Assembly: GCA_006226755.1 (NCBI GenBank) | Contig: SBGE01000059.1 | Span: forward strand, 1-52,254 | Length of the DNA stretch: 52,254 nucleotides | Direction: 5' to 3' | Source of the DNA: Deltaproteobacteria bacterium | Lineage (GTDB): Bacteria; Bdellovibrionota; Bacteriovoracia; Bacteriovoracales; Bacteriovoracaceae | In this document: piece after piece, positions 34,122 through 47,632 of the stretch | How positions within the stretch are numbered: the first letter of the stretch is position 1 | How the letters are laid out: each line of letters begins with the position of its first letter | The notes under the pieces: model-generated | Told to the model about the DNA's origin: nothing | What the model saw: the letters and a program-made list of their open reading frames with translations, nothing else | Databases searched by the model: none | Translations under genes and position numbers: made by a program

Positions 34122-34514
34122 ATGTCTTCAAGAAAGAAAAAGTTACGAATTGTTGTAGTTGATGATTCTGAATTCAGTCGACAAACTACAGTCGAAGTTT
34201 TGAATGAAGCTGGATTTGATGTTGTTGGGTCTTTTGGCTCAGCAGAGGAAACATTGAGTTTCATCAAAGTAGCTGAAGCCGACCTCTATCTTCTTGATGT
34301 TGTCATGCCTGAAATGTCTGGTATTGAATTGGCCAAAGAAGTCAGCGGCTTGATGTCTGAAAATCGTATAATCATGATGTCTAGTCTAAATACAGAAAGT
34401 ATAGTCATTGAATCTATTTCAAATGGAGCAATCGACTTTCTGCCAAAACCTTTTGAAAAAGATGATTTAATCAGAGCGGTTGGAAAAGTGGCCGTCGATC
34501 TTGAAAAGGATTAG
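34122..34514 (+). CDS. Single-domain CheY-like response regulator
   Basis: RIVVVDDSEFSRQTT, DLYLLDVVMPEMSGIEL, GAIDFLPKPFEKDDL. Confidence 0.92.
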   Translation: MSSRKKKLRIVVVDDSEFSRQTTVEVLNEAGFDVVGSFGSAEETLSFIKVAEADLYLLDVVMPEMSGIELAKEVSGLMSENRIIMMSSLNTESIVIESISNGAIDFLPKPFEKDDLIRAVGKVAVDLEKD

Positions 34515-34882
34515 TGATGTTTTTCATGCTTAAATTCACAATTTATTTCTCAATAAGCTTTGTTATTCTTTGTATACCAATACAAAACAGAACACTTTTT
34601 AATTTGATTCATAAACATGCAAGTCCATACACAACCCAGATCTTCTCAGAAGTAGAAAAGGCTGCATCCAATCAAATCCAAAAAGGGAGTAAATTCACCA
34701 AAAAGTTTTTCTCCAATTCGAATCCGGATCAACAAGACAAGGTTATTGCCAAGTTTTCATCAACTAAGAAGCCTATGATGGAAAATGTAGAAGAATTGAT
34801 GAAAGATGAGGATACGGAAGAAGAGGGATATACTGTCGAAGAAAAAGAATTACTGAACAAGATATTAAAAGAGGCCCGATAA
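34514..34882 (+). CDS. Hypothetical protein with N-terminal hydrophobic segment
   Basis: 122 aa, overlaps preceding gene by 1 nt, ends in terminator. Confidence 0.7.
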   Translation: MMFFMLKFTIYFSISFVILCIPIQNRTLFNLIHKHASPYTTQIFSEVEKAASNQIQKGSKFTKKFFSNSNPDQQDKVIAKFSSTKKPMMENVEELMKDEDTEEEGYTVEEKELLNKILKEAR

Positions 34883-34894
34883 CGGGCCTCTTTT
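34867..34894. terminator. Bidirectional rho-independent terminator
   Basis: AAAAGAGGCCCG-ATAA-CGGGCCTCTTTT, 12-bp perfect arms. Confidence 0.92.
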
Positions 34895-34904
34895 ATTACA
34901 CAAC

Positions 34905-35013: not shown

Positions 35014-35208
35014 TTATTGTTGGCCAACAACACTTCCGTTCGAAGTTTCAGCAGGCTGATTTCCACCTTCATTCTGATCTACATGAGATCTACTTACTGA
35101 ACTTCCATCAGAACACTCAGTACTTGCGTCTTCCGACAATGCAAATGCTGATGTAGCTGAACCAAAAACAATTAGAGATAGCAAAATTAGTGTATTGATC
35201 TTTTTCAT
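35014..35208 (-). CDS. Small secreted Ser/Gly/Asn-rich peptide (paralog 1)
   Basis: MKKINTLILLSLIVFGSATSAFA signal peptide, mature LSEDASTECSDGSSVSRSHVDQNEGGNQPAETSNGSVVGQQ; GGAGGG RBS before 35208. Confidence 0.8.
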   Translation of the reverse strand: MKKINTLILLSLIVFGSATSAFALSEDASTECSDGSSVSRSHVDQNEGGNQPAETSNGSVVGQQ

Positions 35209-35247
35209 AAACCCTCCAAAGCGTTTCACTCTTTTGCTATTTATAGA

Positions 35248-35263
35248 TGCACGCGGCGTGCCA
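35248..35263 (-). promoter_or_regulatory. Sigma54-like -24/-12 element upstream of small peptide 1
   Basis: TGGCACGCCGCGTGCA: GG and GC separated by 10 nt; about 41 nt from ATG. Confidence 0.5.
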
Positions 35264-35377
35264 AAGTTAAAATACCTAAATTCAGAGATTTAAGTACTAG
35301 AAGGCCGTCTAAAAAGCTGACTTTGACTAAAAATGTGACGATTTTTGGGCCTTAAAGGCCTGGAGCTAACCGAGAGG

Positions 35378-36763
35378 TTAGCCCATAAATTTCAACAACT
35401 TACGTATTTTACTAAGCTTTGAACTGGTGTAGGGTGGATATTTGATGGGAATGTCCAACATTTGGCGTCTCTTCATTACTGCCCTGAAGTGCGAAAACGT
35501 ATCGAAGGAGAACTTACCATGATACATCCCCATTCCACTGGCCCCTACGCCGCCAAACGGGAGGGTATCACTTGAAAGATGAAGAAGAGTATCATTGATA
35601 CAAACTCCACCTGAAGAAGTCCTCTCCAAAATCTTTGTTTCCAGTTCCTCATTATTAGTAAAAATATAGAGGGCCAAAGGTTTAGGCCTCGAGTTAACAA
35701 ACTTTATACCCTCATCAATATTCTTAATTTTTATCAAAGGACAAAGTGGTCCAAAAATCTCTTCTCTCATCACACTAGAATCGAACTGGGCCTTTAGAAT
35801 CGTGGGTGAAATATATTTGGCTTCACGATCAGAGTCTCCTCCAAGAAGAATCTCTTCTTTGGTGAAATAACCCATGAGTCGATCAAAGTGTCGTTGATTA
35901 ATTATTTTTCCATAGTCATCAGAGACTTTTGGATCCTTTCCATAAAGCTCATTAATGTACTTTTCAAACAAAGGTACTATCTTTTCGTAATGCTTTTCCT
36001 CGACGAGTAAATAATCTGGGGCGACACAAGTCTGACCGGCATTAAAGAACTTCCCCCAGGTAATTCTCTTGATTGTCAGGTCCAAATCCACATCACCCAC
36101 AATAAAACATGGGCTCTTACCACCCAGCTCCAATGTAACAGGAGTAAGATGCTTGGATGCCTTTTCCATTACGATTTTTCCAACAAACTCGTTTCCAGTA
36201 TAGAAGATATAGTCAAATGGTAGATCAAGAAGAGCTTGAGTTTCCTCTACAGCCCCTTCTACAACGCTTATATAGCTGTTTGAGAAGTGATTTTTGATGA
36301 GATCAGCAACTATTTTTGAAGTTGCAGGAGCTACCTCTGAAGGCTTTAAAATGGCAGTATTTCCGGCAGCAATCGCACCGACGAGAGGAGAAATCAATAA
36401 CTGAAATGGATAGTTCCAAGGACTGATGATCAGCACTGTTCCTAGCGGCTCAGGCTTAATATAGGAAGATGCTGGGAAGTGAAGCAAAGACGTCGAAACA
36501 GATTTAGTCCGCGCCCACTTGTCGATATTGTGAATGGCCTTATCTATTTCCAAGATACAAAATCCTGTCTCACTCACATAGGCCTCAAATTCACTTTTTC
36601 CAAGATCTTCCTTGAGGGCATCATGAATGGCCTTCTCATTTTTTTCAATGAGATCTCGGAGTCTTGCTAATTGATTTTTTCGAAAGCTAATTGAGAGAGT
36701 CTCACCTTCAGAAAAGTAATTCTTATGGTCTTCAAAAATGGATTTGATCGATTCGAGTGACAT
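35378..36763 (-). CDS. Aldehyde dehydrogenase (class 3-like)
   Basis: PLGTVLIISPWNYPFQLLISPLVGAIAAGNTAILKPSE, VTLELGGKSPCFI, FFNAGQTCVAPDY. Confidence 0.94.
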   Translation of the reverse strand: MSLESIKSIFEDHKNYFSEGETLSISFRKNQLARLRDLIEKNEKAIHDALKEDLGKSEFEAYVSETGFCILEIDKAIHNIDKWARTKSVSTSLLHFPASSYIKPEPLGTVLIISPWNYPFQLLISPLVGAIAAGNTAILKPSEVAPATSKIVADLIKNHFSNSYISVVEGAVEETQALLDLPFDYIFYTGNEFVGKIVMEKASKHLTPVTLELGGKSPCFIVGDVDLDLTIKRITWGKFFNAGQTCVAPDYLLVEEKHYEKIVPLFEKYINELYGKDPKVSDDYGKIINQRHFDRLMGYFTKEEILLGGDSDREAKYISPTILKAQFDSSVMREEIFGPLCPLIKIKNIDEGIKFVNSRPKPLALYIFTNNEELETKILERTSSGGVCINDTLLHLSSDTLPFGGVGASGMGMYHGKFSFDTFSHFRAVMKRRQMLDIPIKYPPYTSSKLSKIRKLLKFMG

Positions 36764-36807
36764 GATTTACCCCAGTGTTAAGGAGTATTATTCTACCTAA
36801 AAAATCT

Positions 36808-36845
36808 AAAAAGGCCCGCTGGACGTTTTTCCAGGGGGCCTTTTT
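36808..36845 (-). terminator. Rho-independent terminator downstream of small peptide 2
   Basis: AAAAAGGCCCGCTGGACGTTTTTCCAGGGGGCCTTTTT inverted repeat. Confidence 0.85.
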
Positions 36846-36880
36846 ATAAGAGACGCTTTTTAGGGGGGGATTGGTTTTTT

Positions 36881-37060
36881 TTACTGTTGTGTAGCATTAC
36901 CAGTGTTAGAAGTGCTCGTAGATGCATCATTAACAACTACTGGTTGAGCAGATCTTGAACTCTGGTCAGAATGAACACACTCAGTCGATGTATTTTCACC
37001 TGTTGCAAAAGTTGTATTTGCAATCATAAGTGTGAATACAATCAAAATAAGCTTTTTCAT
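36881..37060 (-). CDS. Small secreted Ser/Thr/Asn-rich peptide (paralog 2)
   Basis: 59-aa ORF missing from the track: MKKLILIVFTLMIANTTFATGENTSTECVHSDQSSRSAQPVVVNDASTSTSNTGNATQQ; GGAGG RBS; same layout as paralog 1. Confidence 0.8.
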   Translation of the reverse strand: MKKLILIVFTLMIANTTFATGENTSTECVHSDQSSRSAQPVVVNDASTSTSNTGNATQQ

Positions 37061-37097
37061 AACTACCTCCGGGCATTAACTCTTTGCCTAGAATAGT

Positions 37098-37113
37098 TGC
37101 AGAAAGCATGCCA
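37098..37113 (-). promoter_or_regulatory. Sigma54-like -24/-12 element upstream of small peptide 2
   Basis: TGGCATGCTTTCTGCA: GG-N10-GC; about 39 nt from ATG. Confidence 0.5.
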
Positions 37114-37194
37114 CTTTTCTCACTCAAATTTTCAGGGATTTATACAAGCTGAGGTGTTAATTTTTTAGACAGTATTTAAGAGAGTGAACAAAAA

Positions 37195-37218
37195 AAGGCA
37201 TGCCCGAAAGCATGCCTT
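37195..37218 (-). terminator. Rho-independent terminator downstream of small peptide 3
   Basis: AAGGCATGC-CCGAAA-GCATGCCTT; T run on the minus strand. Confidence 0.88.
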
Positions 37219-37252
37219 CATTATTAAGAAAAATTTTAACTAACTAATTATA

Positions 37253-37435
37253 TTATTCGTTTGTAACGTTACCACCGTTATTACCAGTAGTACCAGTTGT
37301 CGATCCAGCAGGAGCGCTTGTATCAACCCTTGTTCCATCTACATCAGCACAGTCCGTTGGAGACTCGTCAATTGCAAATACATTCAAACTTCCCACAACT
37401 AGCGTCATAACCATTAATAGCTTCAAAGTTTTCAT
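37253..37435 (-). CDS. Small secreted Gly/Thr/Asn-rich peptide (paralog 3)
   Basis: MKTLKLLMVMTLVVGSLNVFAIDESPTDCADVDGTRVDTSAPAGSTTGTTGNNGGNVTNE; signal peptide, single Cys at comparable position. Confidence 0.78.
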   Translation of the reverse strand: MKTLKLLMVMTLVVGSLNVFAIDESPTDCADVDGTRVDTSAPAGSTTGTTGNNGGNVTNE

Positions 37436-37557
37436 CTTTATCTCCCTCACTCTTAATCTAGTGTTCGTAAACCTATTATATCTCTCTTTACGGCAATTCC
37501 TAAAAAACGTTCAACTGCCTGTAAACACGTGGAGGCCTACGCCTCCAAAAGTGGTCA

Positions 37558-39186
37558 TTACATGTTCAGGTTAACACCTGCTGGCTTAACAATACTTAGT
37601 AGACTCTGGAACGCCTGGGTCACTTGAAGTGCCATCTTATGTCCAGACTTAGATTCTACTTTCTTGATCTCACCATAGTTGTCGTAAGCTACGTTGATCT
37701 TACCAACTTCACCCATAGCGATCTCAACAGGCTTTCCAAGAGCGTTGTACTTGAAAGTCAAAGTTCTCTTCTGCTTGGTACCTTTGTCGTAATCTACCAT
37801 TTTAGTGATTCGGCCTTTTCTATCGTAGATCAAAAGAACTGACTTCCCTTTAGCATTAGTAGCTTTTGAGAGGTTTCCTTTTTTGTCGTACTCAAAATTT
37901 GTCCAACCTTTATTGTTCACAACTCTTGTGATCTTGTTGAACTTGTCATGGTACTCAAGCTTAACAAAGTCACCTTTTGTACTTGTCTTAGAAGTCAAAA
38001 GACCTTTCTTGTTGTATTCGAAAGTTGTTACATGATTTCCTCTTGTGATCTTAAGAGGAAGTGAACAACACTCTGAGTAGATTGTCTCAGTCTTGAATCC
38101 ATTGATTTCAGTAAGAATTCTATAAGTGTACTGTGATCCATCAGGACGTGTCTTGATTTCGTACTCATACTTATTCTTAGCTTCTTTTCCATTTGGAGTT
38201 TTCTTAGTAACAACAGTCCAATAATGGAAATCTGGATTCTTTGGATTGGCACCATACTCATAATTTGTAGACTCTTTATTTCTGTCTACGATTTCTGTTA
38301 CGAACTGAGTTTTCTTGTCATAGTTGATGCTTTTTTGTGAACCGTCGGCATAATCAATACCGATCATATTATGTTGTCCATCATAGCTGTATTTAAAGAT
38401 GTTCCCCGCGATGTCTTTAGTCTCGATCAGGTCGTCACCTTTATATCTATAGAAAACCTTCTTGTCGCCAACAGACCAAACTTCTTTGATTTTCCCATCT
38501 GGATACCAAGAGAAGAAAAGTTGCTTAGCTTGAGAGTCTTTGATTGATTTAAGAACTCCACCTTTTTCATAGTCGAAAGAAACTGTATAACCGTTTTTGT
38601 CTTTGATTTTTGTAAGCTTACCGTCTTTATTGAAGTATTCTGTCTTACCGTCGTTATAAACTCTTTTGAAACCTTCTTTCTCTTTGTGAACTTCTTGAAG
38701 TCCTCTCGTATTAGAATAAAGAACTGTTCCAGCTGCCAATTTCGCCTGTACATCAAACTTTCTCGCATAAGCTTGTCTGATCTCAGCATCACCCATAAGT
38801 TTTTTCTTGAGGGTTTCAGCAACTTTGTCTGTAACTGTTGTTTTCTTTCTCATTGCTTCGATGATCTTGTCTGCAGCTGCAGCTGGATCAACGGCTGACT
38901 TAGGTGTAAACCTGGTCAAAGCACCTGAACCGTTCTCATGAACAACAACAGATCCATCAGCAGATACAGTTAGGAATGTTTCGTAATCACTACCCCAACC
39001 AAATCCAAACCAACCTTTCTCAGTCGCTCTAGAGTTATAAGTTCTGACAACTTTCAAATCATGTCCACCACCCGGAACAATAATGTCCGTGTAGGAAATG
39101 TAAAAGTTCCCGTTCTTCAAATTCACCCCAGCAAACAGCGTCGCTGGCAGCAAAAGACTTAGCAAAAACAGTTTTAACAGCTTCAT
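37558..39186 (-). CDS. Secreted RHS/YD-repeat protein
   Basis: Signal peptide MKLLKLFLLSLLLPATLFAG; DUF6531-like GNFYISYTDIIVPGGGHDLKVVRTYNSR; YD repeats (YEYGANP, FEYNKKGLLTSKTSTKGD, FEYDKKGNLSKATNAKGK, LIYDRKGRITKM). Confidence 0.9.
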   Translation of the reverse strand: MKLLKLFLLSLLLPATLFAGVNLKNGNFYISYTDIIVPGGGHDLKVVRTYNSRATEKGWFGFGWGSDYETFLTVSADGSVVVHENGSGALTRFTPKSAVDPAAAADKIIEAMRKKTTVTDKVAETLKKKLMGDAEIRQAYARKFDVQAKLAAGTVLYSNTRGLQEVHKEKEGFKRVYNDGKTEYFNKDGKLTKIKDKNGYTVSFDYEKGGVLKSIKDSQAKQLFFSWYPDGKIKEVWSVGDKKVFYRYKGDDLIETKDIAGNIFKYSYDGQHNMIGIDYADGSQKSINYDKKTQFVTEIVDRNKESTNYEYGANPKNPDFHYWTVVTKKTPNGKEAKNKYEYEIKTRPDGSQYTYRILTEINGFKTETIYSECCSLPLKITRGNHVTTFEYNKKGLLTSKTSTKGDFVKLEYHDKFNKITRVVNNKGWTNFEYDKKGNLSKATNAKGKSVLLIYDRKGRITKMVDYDKGTKQKRTLTFKYNALGKPVEIAMGEVGKINVAYDNYGEIKKVESKSGHKMALQVTQAFQSLLSIVKPAGVNLNM

Positions 39187-39231
39187 GAGTTCAATCCTTT
39201 TTATACAATCCTAAAGGTTCTCTTGTGTATC

Positions 39232-39261
39232 CTTATCGGCATCTATTTTAACCGACTTTAG
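39232..39261 (-). promoter_or_regulatory. Sigma28 (FliA)-like promoter for RHS/YD gene
   Basis: Minus strand CTAAAG-N13-ATGCCGATAAG, 46 nt before ATG. Confidence 0.6.
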
Positions 39262-39277
39262 CCCTTAATCTGAAAAA

Positions 39278-40168
39278 TCAGACCTCAATTTTAACGATTT
39301 TAAGGATCACCAATCCCCCTGCAATATCAAGTAGTAAGGCCGCGATAAGGAATGCCCAACCTACAGGAGTGGTAAACATCAACATCATAGATTTTGGATC
39401 TGAGAAGAAATAAATGGTCCCAATGGCAAAAGGCATACAAAAAATTGTGGCACCCTGGAACATCCCTTGAGCTACGTAAGTCTCGATTTTTTGTCGCAAA
39501 CGTATCCTTTCACGGATTACAAACACAATAGTATCAAATACTTCCGCAAGGTTACCCCCGGTCTCCCTGAGGATATTAATGGAAGCAACAAACATGTCGT
39601 TATCTTGAGTGGGCACCCGCTTGGCAAGATTGTCCAAACACTCTTCTAGAGGTACACCAATTTTGTTTTGTTGAAGAATCATGTTGAATTCCTGACTGAC
39701 AGGAGCAGGCATTTCATCAACAACCATGCCAATGGCCTGAGGAACAGACAAACCAGCTCGAATACCGTTGGAGAGAAGCTGGAGAGCATCAACCATTTGC
39801 CCAGAATAAGCATCAACTCGTTTCTTAAACATATAATCAATTACAGGTTTGGGTATTTTGAAACCAGCGAATGAAACCATTAATCCAAGAATAAAACCTA
39901 GTAACCACTTTCCAAAAACACCAAAAATCAAAAATACAATCGCGCCAAAACCGACAGATATGGCCAATAGCAAATAAGTGACATGCTCAGGCTTGACCTC
40001 AATAAACATGAGCTCAAGTTTTTCCATAATGTATGTTCTTGTACCGAGAGTTTGTCTCTCGATCCAGTCAAAGATGCTGTGTGAATATTTAAAACTGAAT
40101 AGAAAAACCATGAAGCCCGTAAGCCCGATGATTCCAGTGTCTCCTAACAGTTTTACAAAAGTATCCAT
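39278..40168 (-). CDS. tadB: TadB-like pilus assembly inner-membrane protein (T2SSF domain)
   Basis: MVDALQLLSNGIRAGLSVPQAIGMVVDEMPAPVSQEF, INILRETGGNLAEVFDTIVFVIRER. Confidence 0.88.
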   Translation of the reverse strand: MDTFVKLLGDTGIIGLTGFMVFLFSFKYSHSIFDWIERQTLGTRTYIMEKLELMFIEVKPEHVTYLLLAISVGFGAIVFLIFGVFGKWLLGFILGLMVSFAGFKIPKPVIDYMFKKRVDAYSGQMVDALQLLSNGIRAGLSVPQAIGMVVDEMPAPVSQEFNMILQQNKIGVPLEECLDNLAKRVPTQDNDMFVASINILRETGGNLAEVFDTIVFVIRERIRLRQKIETYVAQGMFQGATIFCMPFAIGTIYFFSDPKSMMLMFTTPVGWAFLIAALLLDIAGGLVILKIVKIEV

Positions 40169-40173
40169 CTACT

Positions 40174-42381
40174 TTAGCCCGCCTTCTGTCCGCCGCCTTT
40201 CTTCGGATCACCTTTTTTTGGATCACCTTTATCGGCCGCCGGTGCTTCTTCTTTTTTCTTTGGAGGAGGTGCTGCACTTGCGTTTTGAAACAATCCTCTT
40301 GGAATGTTGTAACCTTTCCTCTCGAGAACTTCGATAAACTTTGGAATGAAGCCTGTTGCTTGGTGCTCACCAATAATCTTTCCAGACTTATCAATTCCTT
40401 TTTGAACATAAAGAAAAATATCTTGTAGGGTTACAACGTCCCCTTGCATCCCACCAATTTCAGTAATGTGAGTAAGTCGTCTTGAACCATCGTCAAGACG
40501 GGATTGCTGAATCACCATATGCACAGCATTTGCGATCATTTCTCTAATTGCTTTAGGACTCAATCCTGCACCTGCGTATTGAACCAGGGTTTCAAGACGT
40601 CCAATACACTCTCTTGGATTGTTGGAGTGAACTGTTGTCATGGATCCATCGTGACCAGTACCCATGGCCTGAAGCATGTCCAGGGTTTCACCACCCCTAC
40701 ACTCCCCAACCACAATACGGTCAGGACGCATTCTCAGTGTTTGTTTAACAAGGCATCGAATATCGATTGCACCATCACCTTCTAGTGAAGGTGGACGAGT
40801 TTCAAGACGAACAACGTGATCTTGAGGGAAATCTAGTTCGGCGGAGTCTTCACAGGTAATGATACGTTCATTGGCCTGGATGAAACCTCCAAGAACGTTG
40901 ATCAAAGTTGTCTTACCAGAACCAGTACCACCAGAAACAACTATATTTCTGTGAGCTTCAACGGCAATTCGAAGAAAGTCACCCATGTTTTGTGTAATAG
41001 AACCGAACTTCACCAAATCTTTCCAAGTCAATCTATTCTCTGGGAATTTTCTGATGGTGATCGTACATCCATCTAGAGCACAAGGTGGAATAATGGCGTG
41101 AACCCTGGAACCATCTGAGAGACGAGCATCCACGTAAGGAGTTTTTTCATCAATACGACGTCCAATTGGTGCAACAATTCTTTCAATCACATTTAGAACC
41201 TGACGGTCATCTGTGAAGATAACATCAGATTTTTTAATTTTACCGCCATGTTCGAAAAAGATTTTCTCTGGGCCAACAACCATGATTTCTGAACATTCTT
41301 TATCAGCAAGTAGATCTTCTAGTGGTCCAAGACCTAGAGCTTCGTCTAGAATCTCTTTCACGATTCTATTCATATCATCTCTTGAATTGAGAATACCTTT
41401 CGTATCTTCTTTGCCCAAAAGATCTACGACCAATTTTTTTGTTTGTTCCCTCAAAATAATTTGAGCTTTAGGATCGTTATCATCCTGTTTGGAGAGATCC
41501 ATTTCTTCAACAAGTGATTTGTGAATTCTTCTTTTGAGTGCAACCCAAGCATTTTGCGCTTTCTTCTCTTCAGATCCTCCGGCCTTCGCAGCAGCAGTTT
41601 TCTTGGGATCAGTAGGCTTATTAAGCTTATCCAATGACTTTAAAACGTTCTTTTGAATAATCTTTCTGGCTACCTCAATCACTCCTTTTGCAAAAATAGA
41701 GTTTTTAGCAGCAACCATTGCTGGAACTTTTTTATTGAGAGCTTGAACCAGAGTTTGATCATCTCTTGGTACAGTTGCAAAAACCGGCTTGCCGATAGAC
41801 TTTCCAACGACTTCTGGAGTAACAGGGTGACCTTTTACAGCCTGATTCAATAGAATCTGGATCATGTCTTTTGGAAACATCATTGTCACAAGATCCGAAT
41901 ACATTCGCTTGGTCTGATTAATTGCAAGAATATCTGGCCCCGTAATCATCAAGATCATAGTGGTGTATTCCAATGCTTTTGTGCATAGATCACTTAATTC
42001 ACTTCCTCCATCGATAATCGTTAGAGGATAAATATTAGTAATAGCCTTGAGAGTTTTCCCCAGTGCTTCAGCATTAATCCCCTCACTTGCGTTGGGATCA
42101 TTTGGCATACCAATATACATGACACCCGCGGGGTGTGGTGAAATGAATTGAATAATGGACTTAGGATCAATTGCTCCTGGATACTCAGCTAAATCTTTTA
42201 CCGTTTTTTTCTGCTTAATACCGGTAATGAGGTTTTGATCACCAGAAGCTCTTTGGTCAAAGTCCAGCAAGAGCACTTTTTGTCTGGCCTCTTGAGCATA
42301 GGCGAAGGCAAGGTTGGCTGCAATCTGGGATTTACCCTGACCACCTTTTCCTCCAATAATTGTAATTATATGCCCGGCCAC
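40174..42381 (-). CDS. Fused TadZ/CpaE (MinD/ParA-like ATPase) - TadA/CpaF (secretion ATPase)
   Basis: N-term [24 protein letters not shown] deviant Walker A; C-term [82 protein letters not shown]. Confidence 0.93.
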
Positions 42382-43871
42382 TATCTTGTCCTCTGTCTAA
42401 ATTTCTTTTTAATCTCTTCAGTTCCCTGTGAAGCTGATTCAAGAATTTCCGGAGTTACGAAAATTACAAACTGACTTCTATTGGAAACATAACTTTTCGA
42501 CTTGATGAAAGAGAATAGCGCTTGGCCACCTTCAACTTGATCAACCCCGCCAGGAGGGTTTCTGTCAAAGTCGGTCGCACTTCTGTTAACGACAACCCCA
42601 CCCACGACAGCAGACTCTTTCGACTTAACCACAATATTGGTATTGATTGTATTCGACAGAACTTCTGGAGGTTGTCCAATTGAAGACGAAACTGAAATTC
42701 CCATATTCAAGTCAATCTTTTCTTCTTGAAGAATCTTCGGCTTAACGGTCAATTCAAAGCCTGACTTGGCCTCATCGGCACGAGTAAACTCTCCAGTACC
42801 TAGAGCAAACTTCTTACTTGAGTTTTTCTTAACAACACCTTGAACACCATCTTTTATGACAACCACACCAGATTGAATGACTCTAGCATGTCCAGCACTT
42901 TTGGCTGATGCAAGTTTTGGAAAAAGGTTTCCTATTGTGGCCTGAAGTGTTCCTTCTGACCCAGTGGTAACTCCACCGCCACCTTTACCAATATTAATTG
43001 AACCACCATCTCCACCAAGTGTAGGTGTCCAAGTGAAACCGAAAATTTTGTTGTAATCTCTAGTTAACTCTACAAATTGAGCTGTAATTTTGATCAACTT
43101 TGGAACTGGCTCTGGTTTTGATTTGGCATTTACTTGAACAAAATTCTGAATAATATTTTTTCTAGCGGTTTGGACAGCATCAGTTCTTTGGGCCAAAGTC
43201 TGGATTCTATCTGGAACATAGGCGTTGGCGATAATTTCAGCTCTAAGTTTATCTGGTTCGTTTGTAACAATACCTTCCAACCAAAAAAGATTGTTCACAA
43301 CCCTAACAGTTACATCACGAAGACCGTTCTTTTGAATCTCATCTTGCATTTTCTTTGCAATGATTCTTTGTGTTTGCGGTGAAAGCTCTACTAGTCTGAT
43401 CACATCTGGATACTTGTCCAGAATAACAACAACTTTCCCAATATCGGCCGGAACAACAATTCTCCCACCAACATATACATAATCACCTTTGACACCTATT
43501 TCTAAGCCTTCCACATCACCAAGGAAATCTTTCAACTCCCTTACAACTTTTGATTGATCGCTGGCCGTAACTGTTACGAGGTATCTGGCTTTGATATCTC
43601 CGACTGTGTTTCTTACTGTAACTGAAGTCTTACCAGGCTTCATTCCTTTGAAGGTCAATTCTCTTTTTGAAGGAATAAGCTGATAACTGAGAATAGACTC
43701 GTTACCAATCTGAATTTTTGTTGAAGGGGCGAAGTCAAGTTTTTCAATCGAATCGATACCCAATACAACTTCGATATTTTTTTCTGGTGGATCACCACCA
43801 GCAGCTTGTGCCCATACATTAGCAGTGAACAAGAATGTGACGATCAGTAAAAGATGTTTCAAACTTGTCAC
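42381..43871 (-). CDS. cpaC: Tad secretin (CpaC/RcpA)
   Basis: N-terminal pilus-assembly repeat then secretin domain (VELTRDYNKIFGFTWTP, LNMGISVSSSIGQ, VVGGVVVNRSATDFDR, FVIFVTPEIL). Confidence 0.9.
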   Translation of the reverse strand: MTSLKHLLLIVTFLFTANVWAQAAGGDPPEKNIEVVLGIDSIEKLDFAPSTKIQIGNESILSYQLIPSKRELTFKGMKPGKTSVTVRNTVGDIKARYLVTVTASDQSKVVRELKDFLGDVEGLEIGVKGDYVYVGGRIVVPADIGKVVVILDKYPDVIRLVELSPQTQRIIAKKMQDEIQKNGLRDVTVRVVNNLFWLEGIVTNEPDKLRAEIIANAYVPDRIQTLAQRTDAVQTARKNIIQNFVQVNAKSKPEPVPKLIKITAQFVELTRDYNKIFGFTWTPTLGGDGGSINIGKGGGGVTTGSEGTLQATIGNLFPKLASAKSAGHARVIQSGVVVIKDGVQGVVKKNSSKKFALGTGEFTRADEAKSGFELTVKPKILQEEKIDLNMGISVSSSIGQPPEVLSNTINTNIVVKSKESAVVGGVVVNRSATDFDRNPPGGVDQVEGGQALFSFIKSKSYVSNRSQFVIFVTPEILESASQGTEEIKKKFRQRTR

Positions 43872-44728
43872 CTGGCTCCTTTTTTAGCGCTGTACTTATC
43901 TGAAAAGAAAGCCTTTGCTTCCGAAGCGTCTTCACCCAAAAGGTCGAAGATTTTTGTAGGCTTGATTCTAACAACCTTATTGTCAGATTTTGCTCTAAGA
44001 GAAAGATAAGGTGGGATACCTGTAAACGTCAGAAGGAAAACTAATTTCTGAACCTGATAAGGGTCGAGTTCCATCGTCACAGTATTGTACTGACTGTAAG
44101 TACTCAAATTCATCTTACGAATAACTGTTGGAGTTTTAACACCAATCAGAGGAATATTATTCGTCATGTTCATCCCGGTAGAAAGAACGTGAACATCTTG
44201 AAGAATGGTCATAACTTTCTGCATGTCTTTTCGTCCGGCAGAGTAATCGATAGCTGCAATGATATCGACCTTGTCTCCAGGCTTGAGAAGCTTAGAAACC
44301 GCTTGCTTCTCTGTGATAGTAATTGCGACGGCCCTCTTACCATTTGAAACGGTGTGAGCAAGACCAGTTCTCATCCCCGGAAATGTAACTCGAGGCTTTG
44401 TTACTTGTTCATCTTTAAGGATTGGAACTGTCGCAATCAAACCATCATCAAGATCCTTCATACTTTTAAAATGTCCGGGGGCTGCAAAGGTTTGCGGAAC
44501 AGACTTAACTGTAACTTTTGAGTCATCAATAAGTTCAAGCTCTTTGATATCAACCTTCGCGACAACGACTGTGACGGGCTTTCCGTATTTTTCGACCAAA
44601 ACATTTTCTCGATCTTCAATGTAGGTATAAACCATAAACATCGCAAAAACGGAGATTATGAGAGCTAATGTAAACGCACGTGTGTTCATCAATTCCTTCC
44701 ATGGAAAAGTTTGCTTACATTTTATCAA
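43868..44728 (-). CDS. cpaB: Flp pilus assembly protein CpaB/RcpC (SAF domain)
   Basis: VVVAKVDIKELELIDDSKVTVKSVP, KDEQVTKPRVTFPG, KRAVAITITEKQAVSKLLKPGDKVDIIA. Confidence 0.9.
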   Translation of the reverse strand: MIKCKQTFPWKELMNTRAFTLALIISVFAMFMVYTYIEDRENVLVEKYGKPVTVVVAKVDIKELELIDDSKVTVKSVPQTFAAPGHFKSMKDLDDGLIATVPILKDEQVTKPRVTFPGMRTGLAHTVSNGKRAVAITITEKQAVSKLLKPGDKVDIIAAIDYSAGRKDMQKVMTILQDVHVLSTGMNMTNNIPLIGVKTPTVIRKMNLSTYSQYNTVTMELDPYQVQKLVFLLTFTGIPPYLSLRAKSDNKVVRIKPTKIFDLLGEDASEAKAFFSDKYSAKKGAR

Positions 44729-44771
44729 AAATTACGAAGGTTTATGCCGAGAGGCAATATTTACAGCTGTG

Positions 44772-45293
44772 TCAATTCTTGCGATTTACGCAGTCTTCAA
44801 GTTTGTTGAGGGCGCCGTTAAAAGCCAACCAAACTTCTCGGTATTGAGCCCCATCATCAAGCTTGAGTGAATAAGTTTCTCCACACACACCATAAGCGGT
44901 TGCTGGACGAATATAAGAGGTTTGATTTTCTTCCAAATCAGGTTCATCACAGGTTTCATCTTGCTTGATATCACCAAACAAAGCGTTGTATTTGAAACAA
45001 GTAGTATGTGGAAGTCTACTCACAATCTTTTCGGCCCAACCCAAGGCAAAATGTCCGACATCGACCAGACCAGACTCATCTTTCCAACTTTTTAAAATTC
45101 TGGCGTTTGGCAGTCGGGAATTATGTTGATTGAACATATAGAAATAGGCCCTTGTCGCTTTTTGTTGGTTAATTGAAGCATTGATTGAATTTCCTGTTAC
45201 AAGCAAGACTCCACAGAGCACCAACACCAATGGCAAAAATACAATGAATTCAAATAAGGCCTGTCCCTGCTCTGATTTCATCTCAACACCCAT
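44772..45293 (-). CDS. TadE-like pseudopilin
   Basis: MKSEQGQALFEFIVFLPLVLVLCGVLLV; prepilin-like GQxxxEF; start moved from 45335. Confidence 0.75.
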   Translation of the reverse strand: MGVEMKSEQGQALFEFIVFLPLVLVLCGVLLVTGNSINASINQQKATRAYFYMFNQHNSRLPNARILKSWKDESGLVDVGHFALGWAEKIVSRLPHTTCFKYNALFGDIKQDETCDEPDLEENQTSYIRPATAYGVCGETYSLKLDDGAQYREVWLAFNGALNKLEDCVNRKN

Positions 45294-45831
45294 TATCCGA
45301 CAACGTATGATGGGGAGTTCCCCCTGCTCCATCACAAGACGGGGCTCCCAAATCTCTTACAGCTTTGCAAGTTCTCTCAAGGCAAGTTTGCTTGGTTGGC
45401 TCTCTTCCCAAGAAGGCTTCTGAGATCATTTCCATTGGATCCAAACTAGCAAACGGAAAACCAAACGAGAATTTCTCCTGGTACTTCATGATCGCACCGA
45501 CATAAAGTCTGGCGGCCGTATCATCTGAAGGAGGATTGTTAAAAGTTGGATCACCTTGATTATGCTTCATGTATCTTTTGAAAACTTCTTTGGCCCTGGT
45601 GGCGGCCATTGTATCTGTGTTTGTATCACTCGTACTATTTCTATCGTAAACGAGGAATGCTCTCGCTGCTTGAAAAGTTGCATAATGAGTCATGTAACCT
45701 CTGGCAAAATTAAGAGCTATTTTTAAATACACAAACATAAATCCAAACATTAAAACAAAGACAACAATGAACTCAATCGTCGATTGTCCTTCTTCTCGCT
45801 CAATCAATGTTTTCTTCTTTTCACTCATCAT
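45283..45831 (-). CDS. TadE-like pseudopilin
   Basis: EEGQSTIEFIVVFVLMFGFMFVYLKIALNFARGYMTHYATFQAARAFLVYD. Confidence 0.78.
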   Translation of the reverse strand: MMSEKKKTLIEREEGQSTIEFIVVFVLMFGFMFVYLKIALNFARGYMTHYATFQAARAFLVYDRNSTSDTNTDTMAATRAKEVFKRYMKHNQGDPTFNNPPSDDTAARLYVGAIMKYQEKFSFGFPFASLDPMEMISEAFLGREPTKQTCLERTCKAVRDLGAPSCDGAGGTPHHTLSDNGC

Positions 45832-46124
45832 GGTTTTGGATAATCCTCATCATTTGAAAAGAAACGAGATCCTGAACCGTCTGCATTTGTGAAAGTATCG
45901 TGATTGCCAGTGTAAGTTGAGTTATCAAGCTCAGCAGTTCCTGGCCTTCCATGCCGATATGTGTACATCATTGAATTTCTCATCCCATTAACGATCGTTG
46001 AGTTCGGTCCCATGATCTCTCTGAATTTTTCATTTTGAATGACAACAAGAACAAGAGTGAGAACTACTCCCAAAAGCATGATGTATTCAACAATACTTTG
46101 TCCTTCTTCGTTATTCATCACCAA
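45828..46124 (-). CDS. Pilin-like protein
   Basis: NNEEGQSIVEYIMLLGVVLTLVLVVI; prepilin-like motif GQxxxEY. Confidence 0.75.
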   Translation of the reverse strand: MVMNNEEGQSIVEYIMLLGVVLTLVLVVIQNEKFREIMGPNSTIVNGMRNSMMYTYRHGRPGTAELDNSTYTGNHDTFTNADGSGSRFFSNDEDYPKP

Positions 46125-46630
46125 AACATAAGCTCCCGATTTTCAAACCCAAACCACATCCATGAAATAAGGATAACAGGCGCATAAGAGAATTTCGTTC
46201 CGAAAACCTCTTTGATCGCAGGTATATCCATACATTTTATCGCAGATAAAATTTTTTCAAAGTTATTCAAAGCATTCATGATGAGAAGAAAAAGACCGAC
46301 GATCACAGTCGACAATAATAAAAAGAGAAATGCACTTTCATGAAGATCAACTGGTGTTAAAAGGTAAAAGCTAACCAAATATTTAGAATCGCCTCCCCCC
46401 ATGATTTTCAACATAAAAAGAATGAAACCAACAAAGAAAAAAGCTATCGGGAAAATGAACGTCTTCATTTCCCAGCGGTACTGCTCAGGAAACAAGAAAG
46501 TGAGCAGGGCAAAAATTGAAATGTTAATGAGGGCCCAATAATTTGGAATCTTCCTGGTTTTAATATCCCCGTAAGCAACCAAGAGCAGCTGTAGGAGAAG
46601 GAAAATGAATACCGAAATCGGAAGCTTCAT
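46118..46630 (-). CDS. cpaA: Prepilin peptidase (TadV/CpaA, A24)
   Basis: GDIKTRKIPNYW and KIMGGGDSKYLVSFYLL catalytic Asp motifs; multi-TM. Confidence 0.9.
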   Translation of the reverse strand: MKLPISVFIFLLLQLLLVAYGDIKTRKIPNYWALINISIFALLTFLFPEQYRWEMKTFIFPIAFFFVGFILFMLKIMGGGDSKYLVSFYLLTPVDLHESAFLFLLLSTVIVGLFLLIMNALNNFEKILSAIKCMDIPAIKEVFGTKFSYAPVILISWMWFGFENRELMFW

Positions 46631-46638
46631 GCTCTCCC

Positions 46639-46851
46639 CTATTTATTATTCTTAAAAGAGTCCACGAAGCACTTCTTTTTGCAGACTCCTACTGATAGCT
46701 GCTGAGAGAGATAAAAGGCGAGATTCCCCATGGTGCCTGTGAGATAGCCATTGATAGCATCCACCATTTTCATAGCGATAATGGCCATGAAGGAGAAGAT
46801 GATAATGTATTCAATAAGTGCTTGTCCGGCGGCACTTCTTTTTAATTTCAT
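46639..46851 (-). CDS. Pilin-like protein
   Basis: AAGQALIEYIIIFSFMAIIAMKMVDAI; prepilin-like motif. Confidence 0.72.
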   Translation of the reverse strand: MKLKRSAAGQALIEYIIIFSFMAIIAMKMVDAINGYLTGTMGNLAFYLSQQLSVGVCKKKCFVDSFKNNK

Positions 46852-46950
46852 ATGGATACATTTTAAATGATGTCGGGATAGGACACAAAGAAGGGCAGAT
46901 TCTTCTTCGAAAGAAGATTACTCAAAAAACGGAAGGAAAACAAAATTATC

Positions 46951-46976
46951 GGAAGCCCTTGAGGGCCAGAGCTTCC
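46951..46976 (-). terminator. Hairpin downstream of flp (possible terminator/attenuator)
   Basis: Minus strand GGAAGCTCTG-GCCCT-CA-AGGGC-TTCC between flp and the rest of the tad genes; weak T run downstream. Confidence 0.5.
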
Positions 46977-46989
46977 TAAAAACTAAGCC

Positions 46990-47187
46990 TTACTGCATAC
47001 CTTCTAGCTCAGTAGTAATTTTGTTTTGAGCAGTGTCAAATACACCTTTCGTCAACGAATCCAGCTTTTCCTGGGCCGTAGTCTTGAACTTGAAAACGAT
47101 CAAGGCCACAACGGCTACCAGCAGGATGTATTCTGTTGAGGTCTGCCCTTCCTCGTCCTTAAGATATTCCAAAAACTTACTCATCAT
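46990..47187 (-). CDS. flp: Flp-type major pilin
   Basis: MSKFLEYLKDEEGQTSTEYILLVAVVALIVFKFKTTAQEKLDSLT. Confidence 0.9.
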   Translation of the reverse strand: MMSKFLEYLKDEEGQTSTEYILLVAVVALIVFKFKTTAQEKLDSLTKGVFDTAQNKITTELEGMQ

Positions 47188-47227
47188 ACCTCTCTCCTAT
47201 AACAAAGGATCTTGATAGTACTGGTCA

Positions 47228-47257
47228 CTTATCGGCATAAGCCCCAATACTCTTTAG
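47228..47257 (-). promoter_or_regulatory. Sigma28 (FliA)-like promoter for flp pilin
   Basis: Minus strand CTAAAG-N13-ATGCCGATAAG, same layout as the RHS gene promoter. Confidence 0.6.
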
Positions 47258-47449
47258 GGAAAATATAAATATAAACACTTATGGTTTACTTCTCCTTCTT
47301 TCCCATGTCTTATTATACCGCAACGCATTATATGCCTCAAGAGAAATTGACCCTAAAGGTCGGGTATAAGCATCTAGAATTATTGAAAATTAACAAGTGT
47401 GAAAATGTTTACTAGGGCCTATTCTCTCGCAAATTGCTATAATGGCTCT

Positions 47450-47632
47450 AGGACCTTGGTTAGGCGAAGACGAGTTTCGCCCTACAAGATTTTTCAAGGA
47501 AGCGGTCCCTGATCACGGTGAGCAAGCTCACATCACCAAAAGTGATAAGTGAGAAGCCTGAAGTGGTTACTAACTGCATCCACCTAGCAAATGCTGGGCG
47601 GAACCTAAAGCCGGCCAAGGTCCTTTATCTTT
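47450..47632 (+). ncRNA. ssrS: Probable 6S RNA
   Basis: TATAAT at 47438-47443; ~183 nt; perfect 10-bp end pairing AGGACCTTGG...CCAAGGTCCT; apical GGTGAGCAAGCTCAC and GAGAAGCCTGAA resemble E. coli 6S GGTGAGCATGCTC...GAGAAGCCTTAA. Confidence 0.7.

Follow-up and report, generated by a model that had tools for sequence, protein, structure and literature searches.

We analysed a 52,254-nucleotide stretch of contig SBGE01000059.1 (assembly GCA_006226755.1, Bacteriovoracaceae), hereafter the window, which carries a cluster of Tad/Flp pilus genes, a secreted YD/RHS protein and three short secreted peptides (A, B and C). Judged by homology and gene order, this locus is the Bacteriovoracaceae form, an orthologue, of the host-interaction (hit) locus of Bdellovibrio bacteriovorus. 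One main way for Bdellovibrio to become independent of prey is through mutations in bd0108. Sequence comparison establishes the promoter architecture of the locus, the coding status of a second peptide in strain HD100, the paralogy of the peptides and the matching of their C-terminal tails within a genome. From these features we propose, at odds slightly better than even (a probability of about 0.55), that the hit-locus peptides are interchangeable ligands of an RHS shell, each leaving its tail free for a shared partner to read, which are swapped by a change from FliA to sigma-54 transcription.

Orthology of the locus and its set of peptides

The YD protein of the window aligns with HD100 Bd0109 over its full length (residues 6-540, 36% identity, E 2.4e-92). 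Its gene lies between tadB and the small secreted peptides in the window as in HD100, where CpaB, secretin, TadZ-TadA and TadB are encoded upstream of the YD gene and small secreted peptides downstream. This homology and the equal neighbours identify the locus as an orthologue of the hit locus. The same order is repeated in about 30 other Bacteriovoracaceae loci, in Bdellovibrionaceae and in other families, and therefore the arrangement is more than chance; the TadB-YD pair is also found in further Bdellovibrionota families, where a secreted peptide usually follows. The closest named genomes are Bacteriovoracaceae and Halobacteriovorax assemblies, which places the window in a predator lineage. 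The original prediction, made from the letters of this DNA, had suggested a diverged and expanded hit locus in a related lineage that may tie the peptides, the RHS protein and the pili to predation or attachment signalling. The orthology and the lineage were borne out, but the idea of an expansion was not, because HD100 also has two peptides. Among the loci compared, two or three peptides are the norm. The elements of the peptide end are:

34866..34895, minus strand: intrinsic terminator after peptide C (13-bp stem, T tail)
35014..35208, minus strand: peptide C, secreted, one Cys, C-terminus ...VVGQQ (ATG start; family alignment)
35248..35263, minus strand: candidate sigma-54 (-24/-12) promoter of peptide C, TGGCACGCCGCGTGCA (consensus search of the window)
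35378..36763, minus strand: aldehyde dehydrogenase, between peptides B and C (Pfam, synteny; position shared by some members of the family)
36881..37060, minus strand: peptide B, secreted, one Cys, core GE..STEC...QSSR, C-terminus ...NATQQ (ATG start)
37098..37113, minus strand: candidate sigma-54 (-24/-12) promoter of peptide B, TGGCATGCTTTCTGCA (consensus; kept in relatives)
37155..37171, minus strand: activator-like site upstream of the promoter, a good match to one half of TGTCTAAANTTTAGACA (many relatives have the whole palindrome)
37194..37219, minus strand: intrinsic terminator after peptide A (equivalent position in relatives and HD100)
37253..37435, minus strand: peptide A, at the Bd0108 position, secreted, one Cys, C-terminus ...NVTNE (ATG start)
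37558..39186, minus strand: YD/RHS protein, secreted, Bd0109 orthologue, 542 aa (DUF6531 and RHS_repeat)
39233..39260, minus strand: candidate FliA (sigma-28) promoter of the YD-peptide A unit, perfect TAAAG-N15-GCCGATAA (consensus)

A search within the source genome (3.85 Mb in 309 contigs) returned peptides A, B and C as paralogues (E 3e-21, 4e-15 and 5e-14) and no further copies elsewhere, the next match (E 0.003) involving the signal peptide only. The family alignment has a core, GE...[ST][DE]C...Q-S-x-R, with a low-complexity stretch behind it, and the three peptides are small, secreted and, by composition only, disordered. Within each family the peptides are related, A with B/C in the one (Bacteriovoracaceae) and Bd0108 with the second peptide in the other (Bdellovibrionaceae); both comparisons gave 0 of 150 column permutations and an E of about 6-8e-4. 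Comparisons across the two families gave only a weak signal: Bacteriovoracaceae B/C against the Bdellovibrionaceae B profile gave 0/150 permutations but an E of 0.06. On the NCBIfam model NF053838 (hit_Bd0108, cut-off 40 bits), HD100 Bd0108 scores 102 bits, and the best window peptide 17.1 bits over residues 1-37, its signal-peptide end. Homology of the window peptides to Bd0108 is only suggestive, and because of the weak signal between families we call them positional counterparts and possible homologues of Bd0108 rather than members of its family.

In B. exovorus JSS the Tad-linked YD gene also has A and B peptides (G041:C1:2417000-2434000). Its peptide A is Bd0108-like (124 aa, ...DIGEDPNMRM...), has no Cys, so that the CXXC of Bd0108 is missing here as well, and ends SGTGN; its peptide B ends VGTGK and lies behind a sigma-54-like site. 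The hit equivalent named for JSS in earlier work is the other YD copy, not the Tad-linked one (PMC4267844). In genome G061, probably Bdellovibrio strain W, a Bd0108-like open reading frame (ORF) is seemingly frameshifted in mid-gene, which would explain the C-terminal region reported as missing.

Promoters of the peptide units and the second peptide of HD100

Consensus searches place a FliA promoter at the head of both the tad operon and the YD-peptide A unit, and a separate sigma-54 promoter before each of peptides B and C. FliA sites (TAAAG-N15-GCCGATAA) occur twice in the 52-kb window, before flp and before the YD gene, where 0.04 are expected; sigma-54 sites (TGGCAY-N6-TGCA) also occur twice, before peptides B and C, where 0.11 are expected. 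The window's sites fit TGGCA-N7-TGC at -24/-12, and their position is conserved. The A-B gap carries a sigma-54 site in 42 of 49 Bacteriovoracaceae loci (shuffled mean 0.10) and the B-C gap in 24 of 32 (shuffled mean 0.14), and none precedes peptide A (0/55). Among Bdellovibrionaceae, 21 of 40 A-B gaps have the strict site (shuffled 0.15), and most of the others have a GG-N10-GC variant. A FliA site precedes the YD gene in 55/66 Bacteriovoracaceae loci but in only 1/52 Bdellovibrionaceae loci, and flp in 31 of 40 loci; the tad operon has been placed under FliA in HD100 and JSS (PMC5430801). Intrinsic terminators stand behind A and C in the window. The aldehyde dehydrogenase gene, found between B and C in roughly half of Bacteriovoracaceae loci, lacks its own sigma-54 site.

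In 35 of 44 Bacteriovoracaceae loci (shuffled 0.9) a palindrome, TGTCTAAANTTTAGACA, is found some 76 nt upstream of the -24 element, and it is present in 19 of 37 Bdellovibrionaceae (shuffled 0.3). Three relatives have 9-11 forward matches to it, compared to 0-2 with the reversed pattern; in the source genome the total barely exceeds the reversed control. Sites for IHF between the activator site and the promoter are mildly enriched, and we make no claim from them. Similar palindromes were seen upstream of other sigma-54 promoters (L149, L157, L163-L165, L170-L172, L174, L182), mostly of secreted orphan proteins and nearly all without a Pfam family, so that a sigma-54 regulon of envelope proteins is possible.

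The counterpart of peptide B in HD100 is a 66-aa secreted ORF (96483-96683) that lies 189 nt past Bd0108, on the bd0108 strand. By its coordinates it fills the interval of a transcript published as a small non-coding RNA (96455-96716), reported to be up in all bd0108 mutants tested (PMC3818213), and the RT-PCR primers given in that report match exactly, inside the ORF. Together with the 102-bit score of Bd0108, these exact matches identify the genome compared here (G060) as HD100. Between Bdellovibrio species its dN/dS is 0.00-0.17 (median 0.03, 8 pairs); therefore the ORF is coding and, by this measure, under strong coding selection. The neighbouring annotated hypothetical gene BD_RS00505 has been mentioned (PMC5941755), and in the literature consulted we found no link between it and the small RNA. 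The peptide B unit could instead be a regulatory RNA whose ORF is incidental, as the description of a discrete transcript implies. We consider this highly improbable, given an ORF that fills the RNA under such constraint and a signal peptide, Cys and C-terminal pattern that recur across families. The unit may have a dual role, as RNA and as peptide.

Genome-specific C-terminal tails

Within a genome, peptides A and B resemble each other in their four C-terminal residues. For 43 Bacteriovoracaceae, own-genome pairs scored 4.07, compared to -0.57 (standard deviation 0.58) for shuffled pairs, with p at the floor of the test (0.0002). In Bdellovibrionaceae (n=29), p was 0.004 for residues -1 to -4 and 0.0002 for -1 to -6. 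The signal was kept among genomes with less than 80% YD identity (n=29, z 6.2) and in comparison with the five nearest genomes (Wilcoxon p 0.0003), whereas residues -9 to -20 gave no own-genome signal; genome composition is ruled out as the cause by these last two results. Identical tail residues use the same codon in 28 of 52 cases, compared to 22.3 predicted from codon usage, and the 30 nucleotides after the stop codon (+1 to +30) are not alike within a genome. Positions +31 to +60 are somewhat alike in Bacteriovoracaceae (p 0.0004), perhaps because of similar terminators. The differing codons and the unlike adjacent flanks rule out recent gene conversion or a shared DNA or RNA element. Therefore, as far as sequence comparison can tell, the tails of one genome are kept alike by selection on the protein. 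Among the other locus proteins tested for the tail, the best pair was peptide A with the 98-aa pilin-like protein (p 0.0022), which was not significant after correction.

This element falls outside the part of Bd0108 that binds its neighbour. Residues 24-66 of Bd0108 bind Bd0109, and residues 89-101 were unaffected (PMC4267844). The prey-independent strain MHI179 has a frameshift at codon 73, in addition to other mutations (PMC11323537), and would thus retain residues 24-66 and lose 89-101. Sequence comparison suggests that the C-terminal tail is a conserved functional element.

Proposed mechanism, alternatives and known systems

In the mechanism that we favour, two or three short secreted peptides, probably disordered and encoded as a cassette, would work together with a Tad pilus operon and an RHS shell. 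The front half of each peptide, around the Cys...Arg core, would dock on the shell, as residues 24-66 of Bd0108 do on Bd0109, while the tail would stay free and be read by a common, lineage-specific putative partner. Peptide A would be loaded on the shell in the FliA-driven attack state, and peptides B and C would displace it once a sigma-54 activator fires; loss of A would raise B in HD100. The identity of the shell-bound peptide would then report the state of pilus and prey contact to the cell.

Several points weigh against this proposal. The affinity of Bd0108 for Bd0109 is low, the window's own activator site is a half-site only, and its peptides have one Cys each and no CXXC. Against the Bd0108 family profile, B/C gave a weak signal (2/150 permutations, E 0.07) and A did no better than chance (48/150). 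The sigma-54 dependence of B and C and their activator are read from consensus sequences, and we infer the binding of B and C to the shell, the partner and the link to predation.

The peptides might instead be small proteins that belong to the Tad machine, either structurally (as a tip or plug) or as its secreted cargo, with the tail as an export or docking signal for a Tad component. Their constant association with tad genes throughout the phylum and the signal peptides on all of them fit this explanation, and a common export receptor would suit a shared tail. However, B and C lie outside the tad transcription units, because of the terminator after A and their own sigma-54 promoters, and no Tad protein has a C-terminus that matches the tails after multiple-test correction, although a receptor need not; we regard it as unlikely. 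A still smaller chance is given to the idea that each genome has its own C-terminal signal, which the peptides carry or of which they are the precursors, with one receptor per lineage. This would be a peptide signalling code coupled to pilus and RHS shell, with FliA driving one ligand and sigma-54 the others, and would set attack versus growth in predatory bacteria. Smaller again is the chance that secreted precursors are cut to release the tails as mature signalling oligopeptides, as with Phr/PapR in Bacillus, with one receptor for the paralogues. Short secreted precursors with free middles and genome-specific C-termini shared by paralogues would be expected in that case, but the match spans only about 4 residues, the protease and the receptor are putative, and it is whole purified Bd0108 that binds Bd0109 (PMC4267844).

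A polymorphic RHS toxin, with the peptides as immunity proteins or delivery cargo, is as improbable as the regulatory RNA. The YD protein has the RHS shell fold: its predicted structure is an RHS-type sheet (mean pLDDT 87), and in Foldseek it matched Rhs shells of the type VI secretion system (T6SS) and teneurins (E down to 2e-22, at low TM of 0.2-0.4). We nevertheless rejected the toxin identity, since there is no C-terminal toxin domain, the repeats reaching a conserved C-terminal helix, with which the model ends, that finishes in PAGVNLNM, and the DPxG[LMWY] cleavage motif occurs in 0/136 relatives. The length of these relatives is near-constant (median 543), and the peptides are secreted and disordered in composition.

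Through this comparison Bd0108 is no longer an orphan but one of a locus-bound peptide set across Bdellovibrionota, the published non-coding RNA of the hit locus can be re-read as the message of its second peptide, and sigma-54 joins FliA as a second regulator of the locus. The peptide set, this re-reading, the sigma-54 units and the shared tails appear to be new relative to the literature consulted. The window's copy of the locus has a published precedent in Bacteriovorax marinus SJ.

The Tad/Flp part of the locus consists of:

39278..40168, minus strand: tadB (T2SSF)
40174..42381, minus strand: TadZ-TadA fusion (ParA-like and T2SSE ATPase)
42381..43871, minus strand: secretin
43868..44728, minus strand: CpaB/RcpC
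44772..45335, minus strand: TadE-like pseudopilin (no Pfam match; type III signal-like QALFEF)
45283..45831, minus strand: TadE-like pseudopilin (no Pfam match; QSTIEF)
45828..46124, minus strand: pilin-like protein (weak Flp1_like)
46118..46630, minus strand: A24 prepilin peptidase (TadV/CpaA)
46639..46851, minus strand: small pilin-like protein
46990..47187, minus strand: Flp pilin (Pfam)
47229..47256, minus strand: candidate FliA promoter of the tad operon, perfect TAAAG-N15-GCCGATAA (consensus)

The three short secreted peptides, the YD/RHS protein and the Tad/Flp cluster that the original prediction had put on one strand all lie at their predicted positions on the minus strand. Its gene order also stood, except that it placed the peptides first, whereas they form the 3' (downstream) end of the array, and it had missed the aldehyde dehydrogenase gene that splits B and C. 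Transcription runs from Flp through the small pilin-like protein, the A24 peptidase, the three pilin/TadE-like proteins, CpaB, secretin, TadZ-TadA, TadB, YD, A, B and aldehyde dehydrogenase to C. Domain matches identify the TadA ATPase, secretin, CpaB, A24 peptidase and Flp; a second T2SSF gene (separate tadB and tadC) was not found in the cluster, which has one of TadB/C type. A 6S RNA (47449-47626, plus strand) stands back to back with the tad operon promoter; in a scan of the window for RNA families nothing but 16S, tRNA and 6S passed the cut-off, and there was no c-di-GMP riboswitch. A response-regulator gene (34122-34514) adjoins peptide C; HD100 and several other genomes also have a related gene beside the locus.

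Compared to known Tad/Flp (type IVb) pilus clusters, the locus has TadA, TadB, TadZ, secretin, CpaB, A24 peptidase and Flp in common but differs in the fusion of TadZ with TadA, the single T2SSF gene and the attached YD protein and peptides. With the RHS shells of T6SS effectors, teneurins and Tc-type BC complexes the YD protein shares the YD-repeat shell fold, but it is half their size (542 aa), is Sec-secreted, lacks a toxin domain and cleavage motif, and has a gene that lies together with those of the Tad proteins and the peptides.

BMS_0182-0184 of Bacteriovorax (Halobacteriovorax) marinus SJ is probably the direct counterpart of the window locus: it belongs to the same lineage, and its Bd0109 homologue has already been published as having two small secreted proteins for neighbours, without significant homology to Bd0108 (PMC4267844). 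Promoters, tails, paralogy and a third peptide are absent from that description. The HD100 hit locus (Bd0108, Bd0109 and the tad genes Bd0110-Bd0119) resembles the window in its orthologous YD gene behind tadB, a small secreted peptide directly 3' of it, a second peptide about 190 nt further on with its own sigma-54-type promoter, a terminator between the peptides and a tad operon under FliA. The window locus differs from it in short, one-Cys peptides that lack CXXC and fall below the Bd0108 model cut-off, in a third peptide behind the aldehyde dehydrogenase gene, and in a FliA promoter of its own for the YD-peptide A unit, an arrangement almost confined to Bacteriovoracaceae in the comparison with Bdellovibrionaceae loci.

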